Shown here: in pieces, positions 4,848 to 24,982 of the stretch
How the letters are laid out: each line of letters opens with the position of its first letter
Position numbering within the stretch: the first letter of the stretch is position 1
Source of the DNA: Asticcacaulis sp. AND118
GTDB lineage: Bacteria; Pseudomonadota; Alphaproteobacteria; Caulobacterales; Caulobacteraceae
Direction: 5' to 3'
NCBI RefSeq assembly: GCF_020535245.1
Contig: NZ_CP084910.1
Span: 1,402,501-1,466,500 of the forward strand
DNA length: 64,000 nucleotides
Position numbers and translations under genes: made by a program
Notes under the pieces: model-generated
Database searches by the model: none
What the model saw: only the letters and a program-made list of their open reading frames with translations
Told to the model about the DNA's origin: nothing

Positions 4848-5150
4848 TGATCCGGCTCCTGTTTGAAGCGGAGGACCATCCCCCACTGACAGGCGCCCGA
4901 AGCGTCCGGCCAAAGGCCGCAATCACCGATGAAGGCGAAGCCGCAAGCGGCGGCACGCGCATGCGTAGTCCGACCCTTTACGGGTTGATGGCGTCAGGCC
5001 GTTGGATGGATCAAGGATAAGCGCAAATGAAGCGGGGTGGCTCCTGCTCGAATATTCGCCGGAATCAGTTGCGTTCGGTGATGCTATTGGCTTGTTAAGT
5101 TCGTTGACTGCGCCTTGACGCATGGCCTTGGCTTCGGCATCGTCCTTGCT
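4848..5150. other. Divergent intergenic region
   Basis: About 300 bp between the minus-strand small membrane protein and the plus-strand pRiA4b ORF-3 gene. It must contain both promoters. I see no clear -35/-10 pair, repeat or RNA gene. Confidence 0.4.
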
Positions 5151-5783: not shown

Positions 5784-6710
5784 TCACGCGCCGCCACCGC
5801 CGAATCGATAAACCGGGATGCCCAGCTTGCGGGCCTTGTCGGCGAGATTGTCCTGAATACCGGTGCCGGGGAAGACGATTACGCCGATTGGCATCACGGA
5901 GAGCATTTGGTCATTGCGCTTGAAGGGTGCGGCCTTGGCGTGCTTCACCCAGTCGGGCTTGAAGGCGACCTGTGGCACCTTGCGATGGTCAGCCCAGCGG
6001 GCGGCAATCTTTTCGGCGCCTTTGGGCGAGCCGCCGTGCATTAGGACCATGTCGGGATGCTTGGCGTGGACCTGATCGAGTTTGGCCCAGATCAGCTTGT
6101 GGTCGGCAGTGTCGCCGCCGGTGAAGGCGATCTTCGGCCCGGCGGGCATGAGCACTTCGGTCTCAGTGCGACGTTTGGCTGCCAGGAAGTCGCGGCTGTC
6201 GATCATCGCTGCGGTAAGATTGCGATGGTTGACCATCGATCCTGTGCGGGGCCTCCAGCTTGATCCGGTATGGCGCTCGAAATGGTCGGCGGCCTGATCG
6301 CGCATCAGTTCGAAGGCGTCGCGGCGCTCCAGAAGCGTCTGCCCCTCGGCGGTGAGGCGCTCCAGTTCGACTGATCTCACCTCGCTGCCGTCCTGTTCGC
6401 GCTGAAGGCGGCGCTGTCCTTGCTCGTTATCGTCCAATTCGCGTTCAATCCGGTGGCAAGCGCGGTGGAAAAGATTGACGGTTGACCAGAGGAGATCGTC
6501 GAGATCGGGTTCCAGGCGGGTGTCCATAAGGGTTGCGATCAGGGCGTCGAAGATGTCGGCGATAGCGCCGGTGACGCGGGTTGCTTCCGGCAGTGGGCGG
6601 GGGTCTGGTTCGCCCTCAAAAGGGCGATAGCCGAAAAGCTGAAGCTCCTGGAGGAGATGGTCCGTGGGAGAGGATGCGTGGTGGGGCTCGAAATCGTCGT
6701 GCTCGCTCAT
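5784..6710 (-). CDS. DUF2493 (YspA/YpsA-related SLOG fold) protein
   Basis: A 308-aa protein from the ATG at 6710. The N-terminal 170 residues are charged and helical (RELDDNEQGQRRLQREQDG). The C-terminal domain is DUF2493: KIAFTGGDTADHKLIWAKLD, MVLMHGGSPKGAEKIAARWA and VIVFPGTGIQDNLADKAR, which are the nucleotide-binding loops of a SLOG-type Rossmann fold. SLOG proteins bind or process nucleotide-derived ligands, and some act in bacterial conflict systems. This version is a standard backbone gene of such elements; its ligand is unknown. It shares its upstream 26-bp element with the DUF736 gene. Confidence 0.85.
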   Translation of the reverse strand: MSEHDDFEPHHASSPTDHLLQELQLFGYRPFEGEPDPRPLPEATRVTGAIADIFDALIATLMDTRLEPDLDDLLWSTVNLFHRACHRIERELDDNEQGQRRLQREQDGSEVRSVELERLTAEGQTLLERRDAFELMRDQAADHFERHTGSSWRPRTGSMVNHRNLTAAMIDSRDFLAAKRRTETEVLMPAGPKIAFTGGDTADHKLIWAKLDQVHAKHPDMVLMHGGSPKGAEKIAARWADHRKVPQVAFKPDWVKHAKAAPFKRNDQMLSVMPIGVIVFPGTGIQDNLADKARKLGIPVYRFGGGGA

Positions 6711-13667: not shown

Positions 13668-15779
13668 CTATTCGGCGGCGACGGCGTGCGAAGCCTCGTC
13701 CTCTTCGTCGGAGAGCGCCTCGTCGTCATCGAGGAATGCGGGGAGCGCTTCGTCGCCTTCGCCGTTCATGGCCGGTTCGTCCTGATCGACCAGGCGAAGT
13801 GGCTCGGGCAGCCAGCCGGTGTCGGCCAACAGGCGTTCGGCTTCCTTGGCCATGTCGCCCTTTTTCAAATGGTCGATGAGCCCTGCTGCCCGCTCGCCCG
13901 CGCCCTCCCGAACGGCTTCGAGAATGCGGGGCTTGGTGACGCGGCCGAGATAGTTGCCAACAGTCGGCTTCCAGCCCGCCGTCGCCATGTCGAGGCCAAC
14001 CGCTCGCGCCAACCGGTCGGCCTGCGCCAGGCGCACATCCAAACCATGCTGACTGATGCCCGATCCGTAAGGGTTTGGCCGCTCGAACAGGGCGTTCACG
14101 CCGAAGCTGACGCAATGGGCGAGCAGATCGAGGCGTGTGCCATCGTCGAGGTGAGCCAACCAATCCCAGAGCCCCTGATCGTCAGCAGGAACATGATCGC
14201 CCCAGCGCTCGTGCCGTTCGGCGACCTCCCGCGCCGCTGTGCTGTCCTTCAATTCCTCGGACTGTGCCGAGAAGAAGATATGATTGACGCGGGCCTCGAG
14301 GCAGCCAGCGGGCGCGGTGCGCCGGAACGTGTCGCTGACCAGCTTGTGCAGCAGCATGGTCATGGCGACATCCGGATGTTCGGCCACCGCGTTGCGCAGA
14401 GCCAGCGTACGATGCGCGGTTAATTCGATGACGAGGCGCTCGGGCAGCGGCTTGATGCCATCCTCTTCGTCGTCTTCCGGCTCCGCAGGCTGGCCGCCGA
14501 TCGTGATGACGGCGCGATGAACGGCGGGCGCGGCCTGCTGGTCCACTTCGCCGTCAACCTCCGCCGCATCGCTGCCTTCGGTCCCAACGTGACGTTCATC
14601 CTCAGGACGGACATAGCCGCGATCCACCGACAGTGAGCCGTCGGCATCGAGACTGACGAAGACGCCGGCGATGGCAATTTCGGCCGGATCGTAGATCGAC
14701 GGGCGCTGCTCGAAGGCGTTGAGCGCTTGTTCGATCTCGCCGAGTCTCGCGTCGATCTCGTCGGGCAGTTCGTCGGCCTCGCCATATTCGGCTTCGAGCC
14801 TGTCATATTCCTCGCGCAACGCCTCACGAGTGGCACGTTCCTCTTCGGTCAGGTCGACTGCGACGCCGACAAGCGCCCGCAGTCCATGCTCGTGTCCGTA
14901 GGGAAAGCTCAAGCTGGCTTCGACCCATTTCCAGCCTTCGCTTGCGATCTCGTCGGCGACGGTCTTCAGCTTTTCGGCTACCAGGCGGTCGAGCAAGGCG
15001 GCATCTTGAAGCCAGCCGCCATCGTCGGACTGGAACAGGTCGCGCAGCACGGTGCCGCCGGCCGCCTCATAGGCTTCGATGCCCACAAAGACGGCTCGCT
15101 TGTCGGAGGCCCGTACTGTGGTTTCGGTTAGCATCCGGCGGATGTGGTAGGGTTCTTTCTGCCAGCCATCCTTGATCGCGTCCCAGACCTGTTCCTGTCG
15201 GGCATGGTCGGAACTGACGGTGAAGGCCATGAGCTGTTCGAGCGTCATGCCGTCGTCGGCGTAGATTTCCAGTAAGGTTGGCGAAACGGACGCGAGGCGC
15301 AGGCGCTGCTTGACAATATTGACGCCGATAAAGAAGGCGGCGGCGATGGCTTCCTCAGTCATGCCCTTGTCCCGCATGGCCTGAAAGGCGCGAAACTGAT
15401 CGAGCGGGTGGAGGGGGGCTCGCTCCATGTTCTCGACGAGCGACACTTCCTCGATCAGAACGTCGCTATTGGCCTCACCGACCACACAGGGGACCGGCGC
15501 CGTCTTGGCCAGGCGCTTCTGCTTCACCAGCAGTTCAAGGGCGCGGTAGCGACGGCCACCGGCGGGCACCTCGAACATCCCGGTTTCGGTGCCGTCGGCG
15601 TCGAGGATGGGGCGGACATGCAGGGACTGGATGAGGCCGCGCCGGGCGATGGACTCGGCCAGCTCCTCGATCGAGACGCCAGCCTTGACGCGCCGAACGT
15701 TGGACTGGCTCAGCGCCAGCTTGTTAAAGGGAATGTCGCGCGCCGACGACAGGGTGATCTTCTGAATGGCAATCGCCAT
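13668..15779 (-). CDS. Large ParB/Spo0J-like protein
   Basis: A 703-aa protein from the ATG at 15,779. Residues 1-200 form a ParB N-terminal domain: IPFNKLALSQSNVRRVKAGV, IEELAESIARRGLIQSLHVRP, VPAGGRRYRALELLV and the ENMERAPLHPLDQFRAFQ box, followed by a helix-turn-helix (KGMTEEAIAAAFFIGVNIVK). The C-terminal 500 residues are acidic, partly coiled-coil and unlike chromosomal ParB, which is less than half this length. No parA lies beside it in the window. Large solitary ParB proteins are usual in these elements and may regulate transcription or organise DNA rather than partition it. It has the shared leader motif upstream. Confidence 0.85.
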   Translation of the reverse strand: MAIAIQKITLSSARDIPFNKLALSQSNVRRVKAGVSIEELAESIARRGLIQSLHVRPILDADGTETGMFEVPAGGRRYRALELLVKQKRLAKTAPVPCVVGEANSDVLIEEVSLVENMERAPLHPLDQFRAFQAMRDKGMTEEAIAAAFFIGVNIVKQRLRLASVSPTLLEIYADDGMTLEQLMAFTVSSDHARQEQVWDAIKDGWQKEPYHIRRMLTETTVRASDKRAVFVGIEAYEAAGGTVLRDLFQSDDGGWLQDAALLDRLVAEKLKTVADEIASEGWKWVEASLSFPYGHEHGLRALVGVAVDLTEEERATREALREEYDRLEAEYGEADELPDEIDARLGEIEQALNAFEQRPSIYDPAEIAIAGVFVSLDADGSLSVDRGYVRPEDERHVGTEGSDAAEVDGEVDQQAAPAVHRAVITIGGQPAEPEDDEEDGIKPLPERLVIELTAHRTLALRNAVAEHPDVAMTMLLHKLVSDTFRRTAPAGCLEARVNHIFFSAQSEELKDSTAAREVAERHERWGDHVPADDQGLWDWLAHLDDGTRLDLLAHCVSFGVNALFERPNPYGSGISQHGLDVRLAQADRLARAVGLDMATAGWKPTVGNYLGRVTKPRILEAVREGAGERAAGLIDHLKKGDMAKEAERLLADTGWLPEPLRLVDQDEPAMNGEGDEALPAFLDDDEALSDEEDEASHAVAAE

Positions 15780-15820
15780 GTTCCTTACTCCGCGACGGGC
15801 GGCCGGGAGCCTCTCTCTCG

Positions 15821-15862
15821 ACCTCCAACCCGTCACGAAGCGAAGCGCCGCCCTCTCACTCT
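15821..15862 (-). promoter_or_regulatory. Shared leader motif, copy B (upstream of the parB-like gene)
   Basis: AACCCGTC (15,827-15,834), 18-bp gap, CTCTCACTCT (15,853-15,862). Spacing is identical to copy C. Confidence 0.55.
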
Positions 15863-15938: not shown

Positions 15939-16889
15939 TCATGCCGCTTCCCGTTCGTCGCCAGGGACGCCCGCAACTGCGTCCGGCAGGTGAGCGAGCA
16001 GCCAGTCGGCTGCCTTGCTTGCCTGGGAGGCGGCGCGGACGATAGCGCGGTTGTCCTCGCGCAACACCTCAAGCCAGGAGCCGATATAGTCAGCATGGCG
16101 GACGGTGGGCGTGATACCGAGCGAGGCGCAGCAGAAGGCTGCGTTTATCTCAGCAATCAGTTCCTCGAAGGCGTATGTCTTTGAGCCGAAGGAACCGGAG
16201 AAATCGCGGTTCAGGCGCGAGGGGTGGCCCGTCGCGTGCCCCATCTCATGCAGGGCCGTCCTGTGCCAGTTGATCGGCTCGAAATACCTGTGGGGCGGCG
16301 GCACCTGCACATAATCGTGTGTGGGCACATAGAAGGCGCGGTCGCCGCCGATGCGGAAGTCGATGCCGGTCGCCTGGATCAGGGCCTCGACCTGTGGTTC
16401 GATGAGGCCGGGCGGAGGTGGTGGAGCCACGATGGCGACATCATCTGGCAGGCCGTCGCATTGCGCCGTATTGAACACCGTGAATCGTTTGAGGAACGGG
16501 ATCGCGGCAGCTTCCTCGCCGGTCGCGCGGGCGCGGCGCTTTTCGTCCTCCGGGGTGAAGCGATCGGCATAGACGACGGTGGTGCCGCGTTCGCCTTTGC
16601 GGACGTTGCCGCCAAGCGACAGGGCCTGGCGGAAGGTCAGCCAGCTCTGACCTGGAAAGCCGTGCTGGATCACCGCGCCCCAGAGGATTAGCACATTGAT
16701 GCCCGAATAATGCCGTCCGGTCGCGGCGCTCCTCGGCATGGCGAGGGGTGCCTTGGCTGCGACGGTCCCCCAGGGCTGGACCCAAGGGAAGCGGTCGGCC
16801 TCCAGTTCGGCGATAATTTTGCCGGTGATGTCGTCGTAAAGGCTTGTCCGGTTGGAACTGGGGCGCCCGCTGCGGTTACTCCTGAACAT
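15939..16889 (-). CDS. ArdC-like antirestriction protein with zincin domain
   Basis: A 316-aa protein. The N-terminal half is the ArdC ssDNA-binding domain (DUF1738): YDDITGKIIAELEADRFPWVQPW, SGINVLILWGAV, WLTFRQALSLGGNVRKGERG. The C-terminal half is a zincin metallopeptidase with HEMGHATGHPSRLNR as the zinc-binding HExxH motif and YAFEELIAEINAAF carrying the downstream acidic residue. ArdC proteins protect incoming single-stranded DNA from host restriction during conjugation. Length and order of domains are normal for the family. It has the shared leader motif upstream and stands divergently from the defence operon. Confidence 0.9.
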   Translation of the reverse strand: MFRSNRSGRPSSNRTSLYDDITGKIIAELEADRFPWVQPWGTVAAKAPLAMPRSAATGRHYSGINVLILWGAVIQHGFPGQSWLTFRQALSLGGNVRKGERGTTVVYADRFTPEDEKRRARATGEEAAAIPFLKRFTVFNTAQCDGLPDDVAIVAPPPPPGLIEPQVEALIQATGIDFRIGGDRAFYVPTHDYVQVPPPHRYFEPINWHRTALHEMGHATGHPSRLNRDFSGSFGSKTYAFEELIAEINAAFCCASLGITPTVRHADYIGSWLEVLREDNRAIVRAASQASKAADWLLAHLPDAVAGVPGDEREAA

Positions 16890-17073: not shown

Positions 17074-17110
17074 TTGAAAACTGTCAGAAACTCGCGTATA
17101 TTTCCGACAG
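17074..17110 (+). promoter_or_regulatory. Defence-operon promoter with overlapping operator
   Basis: TTGAAA (17,074-17,079) and TATATT (17,097-17,102) are separated by 17 bp, an ideal sigma-70-type promoter. An inverted repeat CTGTCAGAAA (17,081-17,090) / TTTCCGACAG (17,101-17,110), with one mismatch and a 10-bp spacer, covers the spacer and the -10. AbiEi antitoxins repress their own promoters through inverted repeats, so this is the likely AbiEi operator. It lies 11 bp before the start codon. Confidence 0.7.
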
Positions 17111-17120
17111 GAGAAAGACA

Positions 17121-17714
17121 ATGACACGGCTGACCGAACAAATTCTGGCCCATGCAACGGGATTGCCCGAAGGTGCCCCCTTGTCTGCTAAGGGCCTGCT
17201 TCACCTCGGAAACCGGGCGGCCGTGGATCAGGCATTGTCGCGCCTGACCGAGCGCGGGCAACTCATCCGTGCCGGTCGCGGCATCTATATGCGTCCCATC
17301 GCCAGCCGGTTCGGCACGCGCGCGCCATCGGTCGAACAGGCCGTTGAGGCCCTCGCGGCCCAGAAAGGCGAGATCATCGTCTCGAACGGCGCTGCCGCGG
17401 CGAACGCCCTTGGTCTAACGACGCAAGTGCCCGTCCGCTCCGTCTATCTGACCTCCGGGCGCAGTCGGAAAATGCACCTCGGAAAGCAGGTCGTGGAATT
17501 GCGACACGCGCCGCGCTGGCAACTTGCCCTCGCCAATCGCCCGGCGGGGGAGGTCGTGCGAGCGCTGGCCTGGCTCGGCCCCGAAAGGGCGGAAGCCGCG
17601 CTGACGACCTTGAAGCGGAAGATGCCGTCCGGCGTGTTGGTAGAATTGGTTGCCGCCGCACCGCAGCTTCCGACATGGCTCGCGCAGAGCGTCGGAAAGG
17701 TGGCCTATGGCTGA
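17121..17714 (+). CDS. AbiEi-type antitoxin (DUF6088)
   Basis: A 197-aa protein from the ATG at 17,121 (AGGAGA upstream). The N-terminal winged helix (LLHLGNRAAVDQALSRLTER, LIRAGRGIYMRPI) is the DNA-binding part of AbiEi antitoxins; the C-terminal region (EIIVSNGAAAANALGLTTQV, VYLTSGRSRKMHLG, ALAWLGPERAEAALTTLK) is the antitoxin domain. In type IV systems it neutralises AbiEii without stable contact and represses its own promoter, which fits the inverted repeat at 17,081-17,110. Its last codons overlap the toxin gene by 8 bp, so synthesis is coupled. Confidence 0.88.
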   Translation: MTRLTEQILAHATGLPEGAPLSAKGLLHLGNRAAVDQALSRLTERGQLIRAGRGIYMRPIASRFGTRAPSVEQAVEALAAQKGEIIVSNGAAAANALGLTTQVPVRSVYLTSGRSRKMHLGKQVVELRHAPRWQLALANRPAGEVVRALAWLGPERAEAALTTLKRKMPSGVLVELVAAAPQLPTWLAQSVGKVAYG

Positions 17715-18723
17715 CGTCTTTCTCCAGCTGTCGGCCGAGGACCGGCGCGATGCGCTGGGCGTCGTCGCCGATCGCTCGGGCCGTCCCATCCATCTTCTCG
17801 AAAAGGATGTGTGGGTGGTATGGGCGCTCGCGACACTCTACGAAGCGCCTCTCGGGGAACATCTGGTTTTCAAGGGCGGCACGTCGTTGTCGAAAGCCTA
17901 TCAGGTCATTCGCCGGTTTTCCGAGGATGTGGACCTGACCTACGACATTCGAGCGATCGCGCCCGATCTGGTCGGGGACAATGGCGAGGGGCTGCCGAAA
18001 ACGCGAAGCGAGGAAAAGCGCTGGTCCAGCGAGGTCCGCAAGCGGTTGCCGGCATGGGTCGCGGATGCCGTACAGCCGGTGATCGCAAATGCGCTAGCCG
18101 CCGAAGGATTGGCGGCAGCCGTTCGCGTCGAGGATGACAAGCTCTTTATAGACTATGAGGCAACCGCGACCGGGTCCGGCTATGTCGCGCCCAGCGTTAT
18201 GCTGGAGTTCGGCGCCCGTTCGACAGGAGAACCAGCTAGCCTGCGCGACGTCGTTTGCGATGCGGCCGGCCTGATCGATGGGCTGGTATTCCCGACGGCG
18301 CAACCGCGCGTCATGCACGCTGAGCGGACCTTCTGGGAGAAGGCGACGGCGATCCATGTCTTCTGCCTTCAGGAAAGGCTGCGCGGCGATCGCTTTGCGC
18401 GACACTGGCACGATGTTGTTCGGCTGGATGAAGCCGGCTTCGCCGACGCCGCTTTCGCCGATCGCGGCTTGGCCAACGCTGTCGCTCGCCACAAGTCGAT
18501 GTTCTTCGCGGAGAAGGCAGCCGACCGCACGCCGATCGACTATGCAGCTGCGGTCAACGGCGGCTTGCAGCTCGTGCCGGTCGGCGACGGCGCGAAGGCG
18601 CTGGAGGATGACTATGCCCGCATGGTCGAGGATGGGCTACTCTTCGATGACGCGGAGTCGTTCGAAGCGCTCATGGCGCGATGCGCTGACATGGCAAGGC
18701 GGGCCAATCGAGCTGGTGCATAG
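17707..18723 (+). CDS. AbiEii-type nucleotidyltransferase toxin
   Basis: A 338-aa protein of the AbiEii/AbiGii family. Nucleotidyltransferase motifs are intact: KGGTSLSK at residues 56-63 and SEDVDL at 72-77 with the two aspartates of the DxD pair. A later conserved stretch is ERTFWEKATAIHVFCLQE. AbiEii homologues such as MenT transfer nucleotides to the acceptor end of tRNAs and stop translation; the substrate here cannot be read from sequence. It starts inside the antitoxin gene and ends 11 bp before the OLD-family gene, so AbiE and the nuclease genes are likely one transcript. Confidence 0.9.
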   Translation: MADVFLQLSAEDRRDALGVVADRSGRPIHLLEKDVWVVWALATLYEAPLGEHLVFKGGTSLSKAYQVIRRFSEDVDLTYDIRAIAPDLVGDNGEGLPKTRSEEKRWSSEVRKRLPAWVADAVQPVIANALAAEGLAAAVRVEDDKLFIDYEATATGSGYVAPSVMLEFGARSTGEPASLRDVVCDAAGLIDGLVFPTAQPRVMHAERTFWEKATAIHVFCLQERLRGDRFARHWHDVVRLDEAGFADAAFADRGLANAVARHKSMFFAEKAADRTPIDYAAAVNGGLQLVPVGDGAKALEDDYARMVEDGLLFDDAESFEALMARCADMARRANRAGA

Positions 18724-18734
18724 AGGGGCGGACG

Positions 18735-20522
18735 GTGAAAATATACTCGGTAGCGATCGAAAACTTTCGCGGCATCCATTCGGCCAGACTTGTCCTGCCT
18801 GACCACGCCGTGTTGATCGGCGACAACAACACCGGCAAATCCTCGGTATTCGAGGCGATCGATCTCGCCTTGGGGCCAGACCGGCTTAGCCGGCGACCGC
18901 CAGTGGATGAGCATGATTTCTATCAGGGGCGCTATCTTCCCACACCAAATCCAGAGGCTCCGGACGGTGCTGAGCCAGGCCCCGCGCCAAAAATCACGAT
19001 CGAGGTGACGATCACCAATCTGTCGCCGGAGCAGGAGGCGCGATTTGGAGCCAACGTCGAGTGGCTGAATACGGCTACCGGAAATTTTTATCAGGAGGCG
19101 AACCCGGCAGGGGTAGATGCTGCTGAGATCAAGGCGGCGCTACGCGTCACATTCGTCGGCGAATACGATCCCGATGAGGATGATTTTGTCGGCAACAGTT
19201 ATTTCACGCGCAGCCTTTCGGAGGATGAGACGCCTGCGTCGTTCTCGAAGAAAGACAAGCAACATTGCGGCTTTCTTTTCTTGCGTTCTCTGAGGACCGG
19301 ATCTCGGGCACTCAGCTTGGAACACGGCAGCCTGTTGGACATCATTCTACGGCTGAAGGAAATCCGGCCGCAGATGTGGGAAGGGACGATTGGAACGCTC
19401 GCAGCCTTCGATGTCGCAAGCGACCCGGCCATCGGCATTTCGGGGGTACTCGAGAGCATCGACAAATCGCTGAAGAAATACGTTCCGCGCGAATGGGGTG
19501 TAAAGCCGCACCTGAAAGTGTCGAACCTGACGCGCGAGCATTTGCGCAAGGTCATCACCGCGTTCATCGCTACTGGTGCGGGCGATCATGCCGCTCCCTT
19601 CTTTCGGCAGGGAACGGGTACGATCAACATGCTCGTGCTCGCGATGCTGTCACAGATCGCCGAGGATAAGCAGAATGTCATTTTCGCTATGGAGGAAGCC
19701 GAAACGGCCATTCCGCCATATGCGCAGAAGCGGATTGTCCATGAGCTGCGCAAGCTGTCGGCGCAGTCGCTCTTCACGTCGCACTCGCCCTATGTGCTCG
19801 AAGAGTTCAGTCTCGAGGAAACCGTCATCCTCTCGCGATCGGACGATGGCCAACTGAGCCAATCAAAAATTGAGTTGCCGGAGAGCATCAAGCACAAGCG
19901 TTATCGGCAGGATTTCCGAACCCGGTTTTGCGAAGGACTCCTTTCGCGCCGGGTTCTCATCGCCGAAGGTGCCACGGAGGCGACTTCCTTTCCTGTAGTG
20001 GCGCGGCGACTGGCAGAGCTTAACCCGGCTACCTATGCGTCTTTGGAAGCCTTGGGCGTCTGCGTGATAGACGCTGGAAGCGAGACCCAGATCGCCGACC
20101 TTGGAGCGCTGTACAAAAGCCTCGGGAAACGGACCTTTGCATTATGCGACAAGCAGACGGATGCCGCCAAGATGGCCATAGAGGCCCAGGTGGAACAACT
20201 GTTCATGCATGACGAGAAGGGTATTGAGGATATGATCCTCAAGAACACCACTCAAGCTGCCCTGGAGCGGTTTGCCGATCAGATTGATTGGCCGCAACAC
20301 CTTCTCGTGAAATACCCTGATCCGAAGGCTCAGGCTTCTGCGGCGATTAAGGACTATTTTGGCTGGTCGAAAGGGAATTGGGGAATAGCTGAATTCTTGG
20401 CACAGTGTTCCGAGGCTGAGATTCCGCAATGGCTACGCAATGCCTGCGTTAAGCTGAAAGAGCTGTGTGATCCGCCGCCGGCGGCTGATGACGACGATCT
20501 ATTCGCGGACCTTCTCGGATAG
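18735..20522 (+). CDS. OLD-family ATPase-nuclease, GajA-like
   Basis: A 595-aa protein starting at a GTG with GAGGGG upstream. The N-terminal ABC-type ATPase has Walker A GDNNTGKSS (residues 29-37), a signature-like FFRQGTGTINMLVLAML, Walker B VIFAMEEAET and H-loop TSHSPYVLEEF. The C-terminal Toprim domain shows LIAEGATEA with the catalytic glutamate, VCVIDAGSE and TFALCDKQTD with acidic residues. Size and order match class 2 OLD proteins, of which GajA of the Gabija antiphage system is the best-studied: a sequence-specific DNA nickase held off by nucleotides. The UvrD-like gene follows after 9 bp, as in Gabija. Base composition is visibly lower in GC than the element backbone. Confidence 0.88.
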   Translation: MKIYSVAIENFRGIHSARLVLPDHAVLIGDNNTGKSSVFEAIDLALGPDRLSRRPPVDEHDFYQGRYLPTPNPEAPDGAEPGPAPKITIEVTITNLSPEQEARFGANVEWLNTATGNFYQEANPAGVDAAEIKAALRVTFVGEYDPDEDDFVGNSYFTRSLSEDETPASFSKKDKQHCGFLFLRSLRTGSRALSLEHGSLLDIILRLKEIRPQMWEGTIGTLAAFDVASDPAIGISGVLESIDKSLKKYVPREWGVKPHLKVSNLTREHLRKVITAFIATGAGDHAAPFFRQGTGTINMLVLAMLSQIAEDKQNVIFAMEEAETAIPPYAQKRIVHELRKLSAQSLFTSHSPYVLEEFSLEETVILSRSDDGQLSQSKIELPESIKHKRYRQDFRTRFCEGLLSRRVLIAEGATEATSFPVVARRLAELNPATYASLEALGVCVIDAGSETQIADLGALYKSLGKRTFALCDKQTDAAKMAIEAQVEQLFMHDEKGIEDMILKNTTQAALERFADQIDWPQHLLVKYPDPKAQASAAIKDYFGWSKGNWGIAEFLAQCSEAEIPQWLRNACVKLKELCDPPPAADDDDLFADLLG

Positions 20523-20531
20523 GGATGTGCG

Positions 20532-22358
20532 ATGGTCGACCTAACCGAAACGCAGAAGGAAATTTTACAAGCCGGTGGACATCAACTCGTTACCGGCGGT
20601 CCCGGTTCGGGGAAGACTACCGTATCTATCCTCAAAGCGGCCAAAATTTCCCGGGAGAAATTGAAGCCAGGACAGCGCATCCTTTTTCTTAGCTTCGCGC
20701 GTGCTACCGTTTCGCGCGTTCTAGAGGCGATCGACGAAGAAAGCGCAATCACGCGGGAGGAGAGGCGACAGATCGAGGTCGATACCTACCATTCGTTCTT
20801 CTGGCGAATCCTCAAAGCGCACGGATACCTTGTCGGATTCCCAAGGCGTATGACGATCCTGACGCCTCCGAATGAGGCGATCGCGTTGTCGACGGTTCGA
20901 AGCGGCTACAAGGCGGCCAAGAATTTGTCGGACGAGGAAAAGGCAGAGAAGCGCTCGAAGGAGGAAGCGGAGCGCGCCCGGTTGGCGACAGAAGAAGGAA
21001 AGGTTTGCTTCGACCTGTTCGCGGGGCGAGTGGCAACCCTATTGCATGGCTCAGGTAAGGTCCGAGCACTCATCTCGACGATGTATCCGTACATTGTCTT
21101 GGATGAGTTTCAGGACACTAGCGAAGATCAATGGCGAGTCGTCCAGGCGCTCGGCACCAACAGCACTTTGATTGCTCTTGCCGACCCGGAGCAGCGCATC
21201 TTCGATTTCATCGGCGCCGATCCGGAAAGGTTGAACCACTTTAAGGCGGCTTTCGCCCCCACGATCCACGATCTCGCCGGTGACAACCATCGGAGCAAGG
21301 GCACCGAGATTGCCCTATTCGGGAACGACATCCTGACGGGAAAATTTCGTCAGAATGACTACAAAGGGATCGGCTGTACGCTGTTTGAGTCGAACCCCAA
21401 CCAGGCTTATGCCTCACTGGTCGGTCAGGTGTTGCAAGCCCGGAAGCGGTTGATCGAGACCGGCCGCAGCGATTGGTCATTGGCGATTCTCGTGCCGACC
21501 AAAAAAATGACCCGGATGGTGTCGGATATTCTGCGTGAGCCATTCGGCAATGTCCCGCCGATTTCCCATACGGCCGCCGTCGACATGGAAGGCCCACTCC
21601 TAGCCGCAGAGATCATCGCCTTCCTGCTCCAGCAACGTCAGCATGACGGATGTTTCGATGAATTTGTCGAGCTGATATGCAGCTATTTCCACGGTCGAGG
21701 TGGCGCCACGCCGACCAAGGGAGACATGGACGAGGCTGCGCGCTTTCGCGCGGCACTGGCCAAGTGGAACGATTGTCTAGCGACAGAACGACCGACACCG
21801 GGGAACAGCGTCTTGAAGGGAACCTACTCCGTTCATCAAGCAGTTGCTGCTCTGACGTTCTCGGGTGATCCGGATGCCGATTGGGTCATGGTGCGCGGCG
21901 TGTTGGAAGCTGGGGCCTGCCAGCGACTGAAGGATGTCGCAAAGGACGCCCGCAACGTGCGCCTACTTGAGCGAGGTATGCAGCTGCGTCGTGGGTTGGC
22001 GCAGGATTGGCGCGACATCGGTGGCTATGGCAACGCCCTTGCAATCACCCGCCAGTCGTTTGTTCAAGAGCATTTCGCAACAGCCCATAAGCCGGAATCC
22101 GGCATCGTGGTGATGAACATGCATAAGGCGAAGGGAAAGCAATTCGACGAGGTTGTGATCTTTGAAGGATGGCCAAAACGGTTCAAGGGCGAAATCGTGG
22201 CAAATCCTGATCGGATCGTTTCCGGCAACGTCCACGACGGCGTGATGACACAGGCGCGTCAGAATTTTCGGGTCAGCGTAACGCGTGCCAAGGAACGCAC
22301 GACGATCATGACACCAAGGGATGACGTCTGTGTTTTACTCAGGCCTGGAGCGGCGTGA
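20532..22358 (+). CDS. UvrD/Rep-type helicase, GajB-like
   Basis: A 608-aa SF1 helicase. Motifs in order: Q-motif LTETQKEIL, Walker A TGGPGSGKTT (21-30), motif Ia ILFLSFARA, Walker B YIVLDEFQDT, motif III ALADPEQRIF, motif V MNMHKAKGKQFDEVVI and motif VI VSVTRAKERT. It is longer than typical GajB (about 500 residues) owing to an insert after motif IV and a lysine/glutamate-rich stretch near residue 140. Pairing with an OLD nuclease defines class 2 OLD/Gabija, in which the helicase senses or unwinds DNA and the complex cuts phage DNA. The next gene begins three bases after its stop. Confidence 0.88.
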   Translation: MVDLTETQKEILQAGGHQLVTGGPGSGKTTVSILKAAKISREKLKPGQRILFLSFARATVSRVLEAIDEESAITREERRQIEVDTYHSFFWRILKAHGYLVGFPRRMTILTPPNEAIALSTVRSGYKAAKNLSDEEKAEKRSKEEAERARLATEEGKVCFDLFAGRVATLLHGSGKVRALISTMYPYIVLDEFQDTSEDQWRVVQALGTNSTLIALADPEQRIFDFIGADPERLNHFKAAFAPTIHDLAGDNHRSKGTEIALFGNDILTGKFRQNDYKGIGCTLFESNPNQAYASLVGQVLQARKRLIETGRSDWSLAILVPTKKMTRMVSDILREPFGNVPPISHTAAVDMEGPLLAAEIIAFLLQQRQHDGCFDEFVELICSYFHGRGGATPTKGDMDEAARFRAALAKWNDCLATERPTPGNSVLKGTYSVHQAVAALTFSGDPDADWVMVRGVLEAGACQRLKDVAKDARNVRLLERGMQLRRGLAQDWRDIGGYGNALAITRQSFVQEHFATAHKPESGIVVMNMHKAKGKQFDEVVIFEGWPKRFKGEIVANPDRIVSGNVHDGVMTQARQNFRVSVTRAKERTTIMTPRDDVCVLLRPGAA

Positions 22359-22361
22359 CCC

Positions 22362-23279
22362 ATGACGCTGGACATGAATTGTAGAACGACGTCTTCTGAC
22401 CATCTGGAGACCCTGGCGCACACACTGGAGGCCACGGGGGACTACCGGGTGATCCGGCGTCTCAAGCCGCGCCCTCGCACCGTTCCGCCTTCCGGCACAC
22501 CGCTGCGCCTTGGCCTGTTGGTCGATGTGGAGACGACGGGGCTCGACCCTCAGCGCGACGAGATCATCGAACTCGCGATGACGCCGTTCAACTACGGCTT
22601 GGATGGCACGGTTTTTAGCGTGGGCGACAGCTTTCAAGGTATGCGTCAGCCGAGCGAGCCTATCTCCCCGGAAATCACTGCGATCACGGGGATCACGAAT
22701 GAAATGGTGGCCGGTCAGATCATCGATCCCGGCGTGGTGACCACATTCGCGGCGCCGGCTTCACTCGTTATCGCACATAACGCCGCGTTCGATCGCCGCT
22801 TCCTAGAAAGATTCAGCGACGTATTCTCCACGAAGCCTTGGGCCTGTTCGCTTAGCCAAGTCGACTGGGCATCGGAGGGGTTCGAGGGCACGAAGCTTGC
22901 CTATCTCGCTCAAGCCGCCGGCTTCTTCTACGAGCGCCATCGCGCGCTGCACGACTGTCTTGCGACGGTCGAGTTACTGGCTATGCCGCTTCCTAGATCT
23001 GGTGTCACGGGCCTCAGCCGCCTCCTAGAGGGAGCCCGTGCCATTTCTTGGCGCATCTGGGCGGAAAACTCGCCCTTTGACCTAAAGGAAATTCTCAAGG
23101 CGCGGGGATACCGCTGGAACGGCGATCCCGGTCCGCAACCCCGTGCTTGGTATATCGACGTTCCCGAAGCCCAACTGGAGACGGAGCTGCGGTTCTTGAG
23201 AACGGAAATCTATCGGTATGAGGTCGATCCTCCGGTCCGGCGGATCGATGCGTATGCTCGGTTTTCAGACCGGATTTGA
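22362..23279 (+). CDS. DEDDh 3'-5' exonuclease (DnaQ-like)
   Basis: A 305-aa protein with a DnaQ/RNase T-type fold in residues 50-200: VDVETTGLDP (D55, E57), HNAAFDRRF (D144) and HRALHDC (H193, D198), a complete DEDDh active site. The N-terminal 45 residues and the C-terminal 100 residues (ILKARGYRWNGDPGPQPRAW) are extra; the latter resembles a tail seen in stand-alone exonucleases of mobile elements. It would remove nucleotides from 3' ends of DNA or RNA. It is separated from the helicase gene by three bases, with its ribosome-binding site inside that gene, so it belongs to the same transcript. It is not a component of canonical two-gene Gabija. Confidence 0.88.
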   Translation: MTLDMNCRTTSSDHLETLAHTLEATGDYRVIRRLKPRPRTVPPSGTPLRLGLLVDVETTGLDPQRDEIIELAMTPFNYGLDGTVFSVGDSFQGMRQPSEPISPEITAITGITNEMVAGQIIDPGVVTTFAAPASLVIAHNAAFDRRFLERFSDVFSTKPWACSLSQVDWASEGFEGTKLAYLAQAAGFFYERHRALHDCLATVELLAMPLPRSGVTGLSRLLEGARAISWRIWAENSPFDLKEILKARGYRWNGDPGPQPRAWYIDVPEAQLETELRFLRTEIYRYEVDPPVRRIDAYARFSDRI

Positions 23280-23297
23280 AGGTGATTGAAGGCTGGT

Positions 23298-23744
23298 TTA
23301 TTGCTTGCCTGGGCCATATCCATTGCCGCCCTCAATAGTCCCGGCAGCTCTCAGCAGATCGCCGATGGAACGCCCACCGATCCGGCAAGCGGCGACGACG
23401 CGGTCGTAAGACTGGTGGTTGGCGACGCATTCCGCGCTCCGCCCCATCGCGATCTTTTCTAGCGCGGCCTTGGCGGCGGGTCCGTTGTGGGAGTGGAGTT
23501 CCGGCGCATAAAAATCCTCAAGCCGAATCTCTACCCAGTTGGCCGACCCTTGGCCCACAGCCACGCACAGAGAGTCACCGTCACCGACATATACCACGGG
23601 ACCGGAGAAGTGCGCGCCGCGGTGTAGAAAGGACGGCATCGGCCCACGATCCGGAATAGCCTTGCAGGGATCAGCTTTGGCGACGGTCGCTGTAGCCAGC
23701 ACGGTTAGCAATGCCAACCCGATTTTGAGACGTTTATGGTTCAT
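23298..23744 (-). CDS. Secreted thermonuclease-family (SNase-like) protein
   Basis: A 148-aa protein with an N-terminal signal peptide (KIGLALLTVLATATVAKA) and a staphylococcal-nuclease-like fold: FSGPVVYVGDGDSLCVAV, VEIRLEDFYAPEL and YDRVVAACRIGGRSIGDLL. Catalytic-type arginines (IRL and DRVV) and the acidic residue after the first arginine are present. The start codon overlaps the integrase stop by four bases (23,741-23,744), so it is translated with the recombinase. An exported nuclease coupled to an integrase is unusual; it could act on DNA in the periplasm during transfer, but this is inference. Confidence 0.8.
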   Translation of the reverse strand: MNHKRLKIGLALLTVLATATVAKADPCKAIPDRGPMPSFLHRGAHFSGPVVYVGDGDSLCVAVGQGSANWVEIRLEDFYAPELHSHNGPAAKAALEKIAMGRSAECVANHQSYDRVVAACRIGGRSIGDLLRAAGTIEGGNGYGPGKQ

Positions 23745-24982
23745 GCTGCTGCCTTCAACCGCTTTTTGGCCAGCATGGCACGGACGAACTTGTCCCATTT
23801 GGCCATGCCAGCGCGCTTCTCAACCATGTAGTTCCAGCGGTCGTAATGCTTAGAGCTGACATCCTGTAAGGCGTGGTTCTGGAGGCGGTCGCGCATTTCC
23901 TTCGGGATGCCAGCCTTGCCGGCCAAGGTTTTGAAGGTCCGACGAAGGTCGCGGTTGGTCGCATGGGGGATTACGCCGCGATCTCGCTGGCGCCAGATGA
24001 AGTTGTAGAGCGTGCCATGGCTGACGGGCTTTGATGGGTCTTTGGCAGACGGGAAAAACCAGCCGTACTCGTTTGGGATGATCGATTCGATCAGCTCAGC
24101 GGCCAAAGATGGCACTGGAACAGCGTGCGGCTGAAGATTCTTGGTCTTAGTCCAGTCGATGATCCGCTCTTTTGCGTCCCATTGATCAATATGCAGGCGA
24201 GCGATTTCCTCGACTCGTTGGCCGGTCAACATGATGATCTGAACGGCGCGTGCATAGGGCGGATGAACCGGGGTGTCGGGGCATTCGAGCCAGCGATAGA
24301 GGCGAACGAACTCGTCCTCGCTCAACCAGCGCGTCCCAATTGTCTTGGGTTCCGTCGGTATGCCCGCAGCGGGATTGTAGGTCAGACGGAAGCGACGCGC
24401 GGCGGTGGACCGATAGTCGTGCTCGGATTTCAAGCCCCAGCTGAAAGCGGATCGAATATAGCTGCGTACATGATCGGCCATTGAACGTTTGCCGCGCTCA
24501 TATATTGGTCGAATGATCGCCGTGATCTCATCCGGCTCGATGTCGCGGGCCGGGCGGTTTCGGCCGAGTGTATCCGCGATTTTGTTGAGGCCCTTTTCAG
24601 CTTCCTTCCAGGACGATTTCCCGCCATCCTTGAGATACGCTACATAAGCCTCGAACAGGTCCGCAACCGTCCCCGGCCGCGTGTCGCCGGCTATTTTTAT
24701 GCTTCGGCCTTTCTGGATCATGTCAGCGAAGTCGCGATTGAATAATTCGCGCGCCTTGCTGAGGGGCATCGACGGATAGGAGCCGAGTTTCTTCTTGAGG
24801 CGTTTCCCGTCGCGCCATTGCTGCGCCATCCAGTCCGCGGTCACGCGGGTCGGCATGGGCTTCATGACGAGGATCAGGCGGCCGGTCCCGTGACCCTCGC
24901 CGTCGACCAAGGTAAGCTGCTTGCCGGTCGTTTCCACCTGCTTCAAGGCGCGGCGAATTTCTCCATCTGTAAGGCTTGGCAT
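23741..24982 (-). CDS. Tyrosine recombinase (integrase)
   Basis: A 413-aa integrase at the end of the element next to the interrupted radC. The core-binding domain covers roughly residues 100-190. Catalytic residues: R256 in LTGQRVEEIARL, a lysine in TKTKNL, R347 in RDLRRTF, H370 in LQNHALQ and the nucleophile Y380 in SKHYDRW. The box II histidine of the usual HxxR is arginine here (R344-D-L-R347), a tolerated but uncommon variant. The protein directs site-specific insertion, most likely at radC given its position. It overlaps the SNase gene by four bases. Confidence 0.92.
   Translation of the reverse strand: MPSLTDGEIRRALKQVETTGKQLTLVDGEGHGTGRLILVMKPMPTRVTADWMAQQWRDGKRLKKKLGSYPSMPLSKARELFNRDFADMIQKGRSIKIAGDTRPGTVADLFEAYVAYLKDGGKSSWKEAEKGLNKIADTLGRNRPARDIEPDEITAIIRPIYERGKRSMADHVRSYIRSAFSWGLKSEHDYRSTAARRFRLTYNPAAGIPTEPKTIGTRWLSEDEFVRLYRWLECPDTPVHPPYARAVQIIMLTGQRVEEIARLHIDQWDAKERIIDWTKTKNLQPHAVPVPSLAAELIESIIPNEYGWFFPSAKDPSKPVSHGTLYNFIWRQRDRGVIPHATNRDLRRTFKTLAGKAGIPKEMRDRLQNHALQDVSSKHYDRWNYMVEKRAGMAKWDKFVRAMLAKKRLKAAA

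Follow-up and report, generated by a model that had tools for sequence, protein, structure and literature searches.

A DEDDh exonuclease gene beside exchangeable Gabija and SIR2-HerA cassettes: a probable optional accessory of unrelated defence systems in Asticcacaulis sp. AND118 and related elements

The genes of a Gabija antiphage system in Asticcacaulis sp. AND118 are followed on the same strand by a gene for a DEDDh 3'-5' exonuclease, which raises the question of whether this exonuclease is a part of Gabija. The locus was analysed within a stretch of 64,000 nucleotides (contig NZ_CP084910.1, positions 1,402,501 to 1,466,500), termed the window, whose own numbering is used below. A preliminary description had proposed that the exonuclease (22362..23279, + strand) is a fixed third subunit of the GajA (18735..20522, +) and GajB (20532..22358, +) pair. 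The coordinates, the strand and the gaps of 9 and 3 bp were exact on re-checking; the run of genes, however, was found to start earlier, and comprises five packed genes on the + strand, for an AbiEi-family antitoxin (DUF6088; 17121..17714), an AbiEii nucleotidyltransferase toxin (17707..18723), GajA, GajB and the exonuclease, with gaps of -8, 11, 9 and 3 bp. The comparisons described here indicate that Gabija occupies an exchange slot in this run, and that the exonuclease is probably an optional accessory common to unrelated defence systems and not a Gabija subunit.

Two elements which differ in what stands before the exonuclease were otherwise nearly identical. Locus L031, with Gabija, and locus L018, with SIR2-HerA, shared 97.7% identity across the 6307 bp that end with AbiEii and 97.1% again from the exonuclease start, with different cassettes between. 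When the window was compared with L018 by blastn, the match broke at 18695 and resumed at 22388, which places the exchangeable cassette (Gabija in the window, SIR2-HerA in sister elements) at 18696..22387 (+), with AbiEii as the left and the exonuclease as the right border of the slot. The match ended 3-28 bp before the end of AbiEii and restarted at the exonuclease start in each of the five Gabija/SIR2-HerA pairs that were aligned. The Haematobacter plasmid pOT1-2 has the same backbone as the window (ParB, DUF2958, ArdC, DUF6088/AbiEi and AbiEii), followed after AbiEii by SIR2, an ATP-binding protein and an exonuclease with 90% identity to that of the window; the Novosphingobium counterparts of the SIR2 and ATP-binding genes were identified by PADLOC as SIR2 and HerA (PDLC04090 and PDLC04102). 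SIR2-HerA fills the same slot of the same backbone, with the same exonuclease after it, but is absent from the window, where GajA and GajB lie upstream of the exonuclease in its stead; no HerA match (PDLC04102, E <= 1e-60) was found in the window's genome. These comparisons show that cassettes were exchanged between AbiEii and the exonuclease, the exonuclease staying in place.

The 3-bp same-strand spacing between gajB and the exonuclease gene would favour a dedicated three-gene Gabija variant, with the exonuclease as a functional third subunit of GajAB; the retention of the exonuclease when the cassette is exchanged counts against this, and so does the history of the spacing itself. The junction was compared in 17 loci (ten SIR2-HerA loci, the Gabija loci L031, L015, L020, L021 and L023, the window and L029). 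The ten SIR2-HerA loci and the five Gabija loci have an ATG where the conserved exonuclease sequence starts or one codon ahead of it; this ATG is gone from the window and L029, where the exonuclease frame can start upstream (in the window, 3 bp past the gajB stop). Because of this distribution, the spacing is most simply explained as a derived, late change through loss of the ancestral ATG. In L023 (4856-8136), GajA was found split in two by intervening genes, GajB and the exonuclease being intact.

The Gabija pair in the window is a complete, ordinary two-gene system. GajA, an OLD-family AAA ATPase with a Toprim nuclease domain (Pfam AAA_15 and OLD-like_TOPRIM), matched PADLOC PDLC00086 with 902 bits over residues 1-585, and GajB, a UvrD-like superfamily 1 helicase (Pfam UvrD-helicase), matched PDLC00104 with 792 bits over residues 2-604; matches over nearly the full length of both proteins bear out the earlier assignment of the pair to Gabija. 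GajA has the N-terminal ABC-type ATPase and C-terminal Toprim of this system, and the helicase adjoins it on the same strand. In known Gabija the two proteins form a 4:4 complex that protects against phage. The motifs described earlier were also recovered, namely what we take to be Walker A (residue 29), MEEAE (319) and a Toprim-like LIAEGATEA (408) in GajA, and Walker A (22), VLDEFQD (189) and the VTRAKE region (580) in GajB. GajB (608 aa) had been called about 100 residues longer than is typical, which is true of a comparison with the solved GajB chains (493-499 aa) but not of one with the PADLOC models, the best-matching of which has 574 positions and others up to 647; an unusual length was therefore rejected. 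The window shares with known Gabija the adjacent same-strand GajA and GajB genes, and differs by the exonuclease after them and AbiEi/AbiEii before. Gabija is described with two components in the portions seen of three papers (PMC10781630, PMC10822852, PMC10568477).

The exonuclease scored 426 bits against NCBIfam NF006615/PRK09182 (cut-off 207) and has all five catalytic residues (D55, E57, D144, H193 and D198), which places it in the PRK09182 subfamily and agrees with the complete DEDDh site noted earlier. Its AlphaFold model (mean pLDDT, the predicted local distance difference test, 89.6) gave DinG-exo, PolC, ExoX and ExoI as first Foldseek matches, and the predicted fold is DnaQ-type; TM-scores over the whole protein were just 0.37-0.50 (best 50 rows). 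The DEDDh nuclease fold is held in common with ExoX and the PolC/DnaQ proofreading exonucleases, from which the window protein differs by an extra conserved C-terminal region of approximately 90 residues past the nuclease fold (approximately residues 215-305). The only PADLOC families matched were CRISPR-associated DEDDh and PDC-S48. A second copy in the same genome, 43% identical to the window's, had no match to the Gabija or SIR2-HerA probes nearby. The name PRK09182 was not found in the literature searched, and among the literature matches listed there was no description of this exonuclease tied to Gabija or SIR2-HerA, which is not proof of absence. A candidate exonuclease fusion in genome G356 (a 611-aa open frame) was rejected, as its N-terminal extension looks like an over-extended gene call.

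The neighbours of the exonuclease were surveyed in the 80 best of at least 413 loci confirmed in a scan of genome contigs with a seven-sequence alignment, which favours exonucleases like the window's. Some of these loci are cut by contig ends (e.g. L033, L040 and L068), and L016 ends before SIR2. The neighbour table covers 84 of 88 loci; L061, L081, L082 and L092, with no exonuclease gene called, were read from tblastn. SIR2-HerA stood beside the exonuclease in 24 of the 80 loci, Gabija in 12 and neither in 44, the last group comprising loci in which none of the probes matched next to the exonuclease (in L036 a Gabija-like pair lies approximately 6 kb off). The exonuclease is thus not restricted to Gabija, 24 of its 80 loci having SIR2-HerA instead. 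HerA lay directly upstream in 22 of these 24 (including L016); in L061 a HerA fragment was upstream, and in L069 SIR2-HerA was downstream. Of the 25 called loci, 21 had HerA and exonuclease genes that overlapped by 1-17 bp, the spacing otherwise being 1 bp in L072 and 117-131 bp in L032, L049 and L051; their exonucleases share 52-93% identity with that of the window. The same SIR2-HerA-exonuclease order with overlapping genes was found in L019, L022, L047, L059 and L071, in which no backbone ParB, ArdC, AbiE or Int was matched. A KAP-type NTPase gene follows SIR2-HerA-exonuclease in L053 (10974-12842), L057 and L058 (Pfam on L053 only), and is a possible further member of this neighbourhood.

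The 12 Gabija loci fell into four GajA lineages (one member per lineage was tested with the PADLOC models, and the rest were assigned by tblastn). Lineage (a), the window's (PDLC00086), had the exonuclease downstream in six loci, and lineage (b) (PDLC00072) had it upstream of GajA, in the order exonuclease-GajA-GajB, in four. Plasmids added L012, L226, L232 and L233 to the latter, giving eight such loci, with the exonuclease 30-56 bp upstream of GajA in L012, L034, L037, L043, L226, L232 and L233. In lineage (c) (PDLC04168; L045) the exonuclease was 80 bp downstream, and in lineage (d) (PDLC00071; L083) it was on the opposite strand. Other neighbours of the exonuclease were AbiEii, a TOTE-like system, an AAA+ M41 peptidase gene and dinB. 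The AAA+ M41-peptidase gene overlaps the exonuclease by 4 bp in L087 (6626-8803; weak IetA similarity) and L076 (1555-4020).

A different result was obtained from the Gabija side. The exonuclease was present in none of 13 loci retrieved with GajA of the window or the corresponding PADLOC model, all with gajB present and more than 1 kb beyond it (L139, L140 and L127, with gajB missing or cut off, were dropped; L009, with split gajA and gajB, was retained; L136-L138 share 98.5% identity among themselves). Nine GajA matches at E <= 1e-60 were obtained from 398 genomes drawn evenly from the order to which the window belongs, with the exonuclease in one, the window's own. The GajA_a-centred total is therefore 0 of 21 related pairs (13 + 8), with GajA 36-85% identical to the window's. 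Among 385 genomes sampled evenly from the class four had a PDLC00086 match at E <= 1e-20, and of these four only the window's genome had an exonuclease above the cut-off; the exonuclease was also absent from all eight viral-contig loci surveyed from the Gabija side. Plasmid loci were hand-picked (GajA_b, 12 of 144 records; GajA_a, 7 of 75; HerA, 4 of 7). An intact exonuclease was found in four of the 12 lineage-(b) plasmid loci (L012, L226, L232 and L233), all known from the exonuclease search. In L223, whose GajA is 86% identical to that of L012, a 38-residue exonuclease remnant lies just before GajA (4850-4963), and in L266 a 44-residue remnant lies beside HerA (6028-6159); these remnants suggest loss of the exonuclease gene. 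Upstream of lineage-(b) GajA there was a Shedu nuclease gene in L224, L225 and L128 and an AbiJ-NTD4 gene in L227 and L228; in L224 and L225 the Shedu gene takes the position of the exonuclease before GajA, as if an exchangeable partner slot lay ahead of lineage-(b) GajA.

From the side of SIR2-HerA, nine genomes of the class sample matched PDLC04102 at E <= 1e-60, and the exonuclease was adjacent in two; the SIR2-HerA of genome G015 had no adjacent exonuclease. Plasmid SIR2-HerA had the exonuclease in 3 of 7 records (four opened), and the remnant of L266 in a fourth. The exonuclease is optional from both sides. Linkage of the exonuclease to OLD/UvrD pairs, the rarity of which elsewhere had been named earlier as a refutation of the third subunit, was recovered when starting from the exonuclease (12 of 80 loci, four GajA lineages) and lost when starting from GajA (0 of 21), and in the wider lineage of the window's Gabija the exonuclease is rarely linked.

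A quick-grade tree of 90 exonucleases with many open forks (L068, too short, was left out) placed the window's in a clade of 23 rows (Shimodaira-Hasegawa-like approximate likelihood ratio test, SH-aLRT, 100) comprising 15 SIR2-HerA rows, seven Gabija-a rows and one contig-end row. The Gabija-a label needed five changes on this tree, of which the starred branches alone force only one. A fixed third Gabija subunit was consequently rejected for the wider window lineage, given the clade shared with SIR2-HerA, the cassette exchange, the derived spacing and the count of 0 of 21. In favour of the three-gene variant are the seven Gabija-a loci, the eight exonuclease-GajA-GajB loci of lineage (b) and the one Gabija-c locus that have the exonuclease, and the closest GajA proteins (92-97% identical to the window's), all of which have it though all were found through it. 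The same exonuclease clade nevertheless serves SIR2-HerA, and between the window and L029 the number of synonymous substitutions per site (dS) was 0.64 for the exonuclease compared with 0.24 for both GajA and GajB. This excess is due to a diverged tract at approximately 22750-23550 (72-84% identity, compared with 86-98% elsewhere), which spans the 3' half of the exonuclease and the small gene after it and is read as a separate recombination. Overall, a dedicated three-gene variant is considered highly improbable.

The ratio of nonsynonymous to synonymous substitution (dN/dS) was 0.066-0.102 in five pairs of Gabija-linked exonucleases and, similarly, 0.076-0.116 in three SIR2-HerA-linked pairs, and the five catalytic residues were intact in all seven Gabija-linked exonucleases. 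The low dN/dS and the intact residues show the Gabija-linked exonuclease to be a working gene under purifying selection, whatever its task. The same selection and residues count against a relic, in which the exonuclease would belong to a SIR2-HerA-exonuclease system as its third component, would have stayed when Gabija took the place of SIR2-HerA and would now be idle. The frequent overlap of the HerA and exonuclease genes (21 of 25) and the nesting of the Gabija-a exonucleases among the SIR2-HerA ones in the tree are what a relic would predict; the separate association with Gabija-b, the SIR2-HerA of G015 without an adjacent exonuclease and the mere remnant in L266 are not, and a relic is quite unlikely.

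The exonuclease is a recurrent, constrained neighbour of Gabija and not random cargo, and it is neither general nor specific to Gabija. That it is an optional accessory common to unrelated systems is the probable reading of the anatomy of the locus, the cassette exchange, the promiscuous linkage, the selective constraint and the absence or remnants in relatives, all of which are evident at the sequence level; its role in defence would be a further step. A precedent for an exonuclease in a defence operon is Cap18, an accessory 3'-5' exonuclease of some operons of the cyclic oligonucleotide-based antiphage signalling system (CBASS), according to the part seen of one paper (PMC9122588). Cap18 resembles the window's enzyme in being predicted to be a 3'-5' exonuclease and in lying in a defence operon, but its partner is CBASS, and the two are likened by description; no CBASS family was among the PADLOC matches listed for the five operon proteins (best 25 rows for GajA and GajB).

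Several observations weigh against this accessory role. Catalytically dead Cap18 left protection unaffected in the one CBASS system tested, according to the same part of that paper (PMC9122588). Lineages (c) and (d) are represented by one locus each, the latter with the exonuclease on the opposite strand, and the GajA proteins lacking the exonuclease resemble the window's less closely (36-85% identity) than do those linked to it (92-97%), every one of which was found through the exonuclease; a small exonuclease-bearing GajA clade close to the window's may therefore exist. In the even class sample of 385 genomes, 18 genomes had between them 20 exonucleases that exceeded the cut-off, the window's included, and of these 20 one was beside Gabija (the window), two were beside SIR2-HerA and 17 were beside neither (probes for the four Gabija lineages and one SIR2-HerA, within approximately 8 kb or to the contig end; G175 and G334 are not independent of L005 and L030). 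The exonuclease also overlaps dinB (DNA polymerase IV) by 4 bp in L013 (2877-4894) and L036 (7727-9726), which suggests a repair role for some members of the family. Because of these 17 copies and the dinB overlap, the exonuclease family is taken to have non-defence contexts as well, the link to defence being concentrated in exonucleases nearer to the window's.

The same 17 copies and the dinB overlaps support an exonuclease serving the element itself in repair, proofreading or transfer, as a fixed landmark for incoming cassettes with no defence role. So do the exonuclease matches in 690 plasmid records, though mostly at less than 60% identity and with only 361 over 80% of the query. Such element housekeeping does not account for SIR2-HerA and the exonuclease being kept together off this backbone (L019, L022, L047, L059 and L071), nor for the exonuclease-GajA-GajB order in another Gabija lineage on other elements, and it is regarded as unlikely. 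A scan of viral contigs gave three exonuclease relatives at 42-56% identity (L142-L144) and 77 other kept loci at 24-38%; no Gabija or SIR2-HerA was found near L142-L144 by tblastn with the probes, and no HerA was confirmed in the viral contigs.

If the exonuclease is an accessory of defence, it would be expressed together with whichever system fills the slot, and would trim the DNA 3' ends which that system exposes, such as GajA nicks opened by GajB or the ends left by SIR2-HerA. Phage DNA could then not be re-joined, circularised or repaired, and the exonuclease would not be strictly required. The portion seen of a 2025 preprint reports that Pseudomonas aeruginosa Gabija blocks phage genome circularisation and that linear DNA on which RecBCD acts resists Gabija (PMC12407980). 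A 3'-5' exonuclease trimming ends or nicks would fit a Gabija that blocks circularisation, and would fit equally any system leaving DNA ends. It is conceivable, at somewhat less than even chance, that this DEDDh subfamily is a plug-in which boosts or widens unrelated DNA-targeting systems (several Gabija lineages and SIR2-HerA), with cooperation kept through the swaps.

The remaining genes of the run and its surroundings were annotated as follows. AbiEi was assigned by Pfam and PADLOC, with its start from a codon-model gene call, and AbiEii by Pfam PF08843 and PADLOC PDLC02289. A promoter-like site 5' of AbiEi (17074..17102, +) is a match to the consensus only, at 10 of 12 positions. To the left, on the - strand, lie an ArdC-like anti-restriction protein (15939..16889; Pfam ArdcN and MPTase-PolyVal) and a ParB-N domain protein (13668..15836; Pfam ParB_N), both of the element backbone, and further left a strawberry-notch-type helicase and a Toprim protein. 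To the right, also on the - strand, are a small conserved element gene (23298..23744; 'TNuc' is a label by eye, with no Pfam match) and the tyrosine integrase of the element (23741..24982; Pfam Phage_integrase, with matches in sister elements). Together with the integrase, the ParB-N, ArdC, helicase and Toprim genes around Gabija look like a mobile element, and from approximately 28.5 kb of the window onward the genes look chromosomal.

For the reading of such loci, genes that are closely packed in a single element give little reason to propose a new subunit. The loci L031 and L018, near-identical save for the cassette, offer a ready-made comparison. Should the exonuclease work with Gabija as well as with SIR2-HerA, an accessory enzyme would be common to defence systems that are swapped as cassettes beside it.

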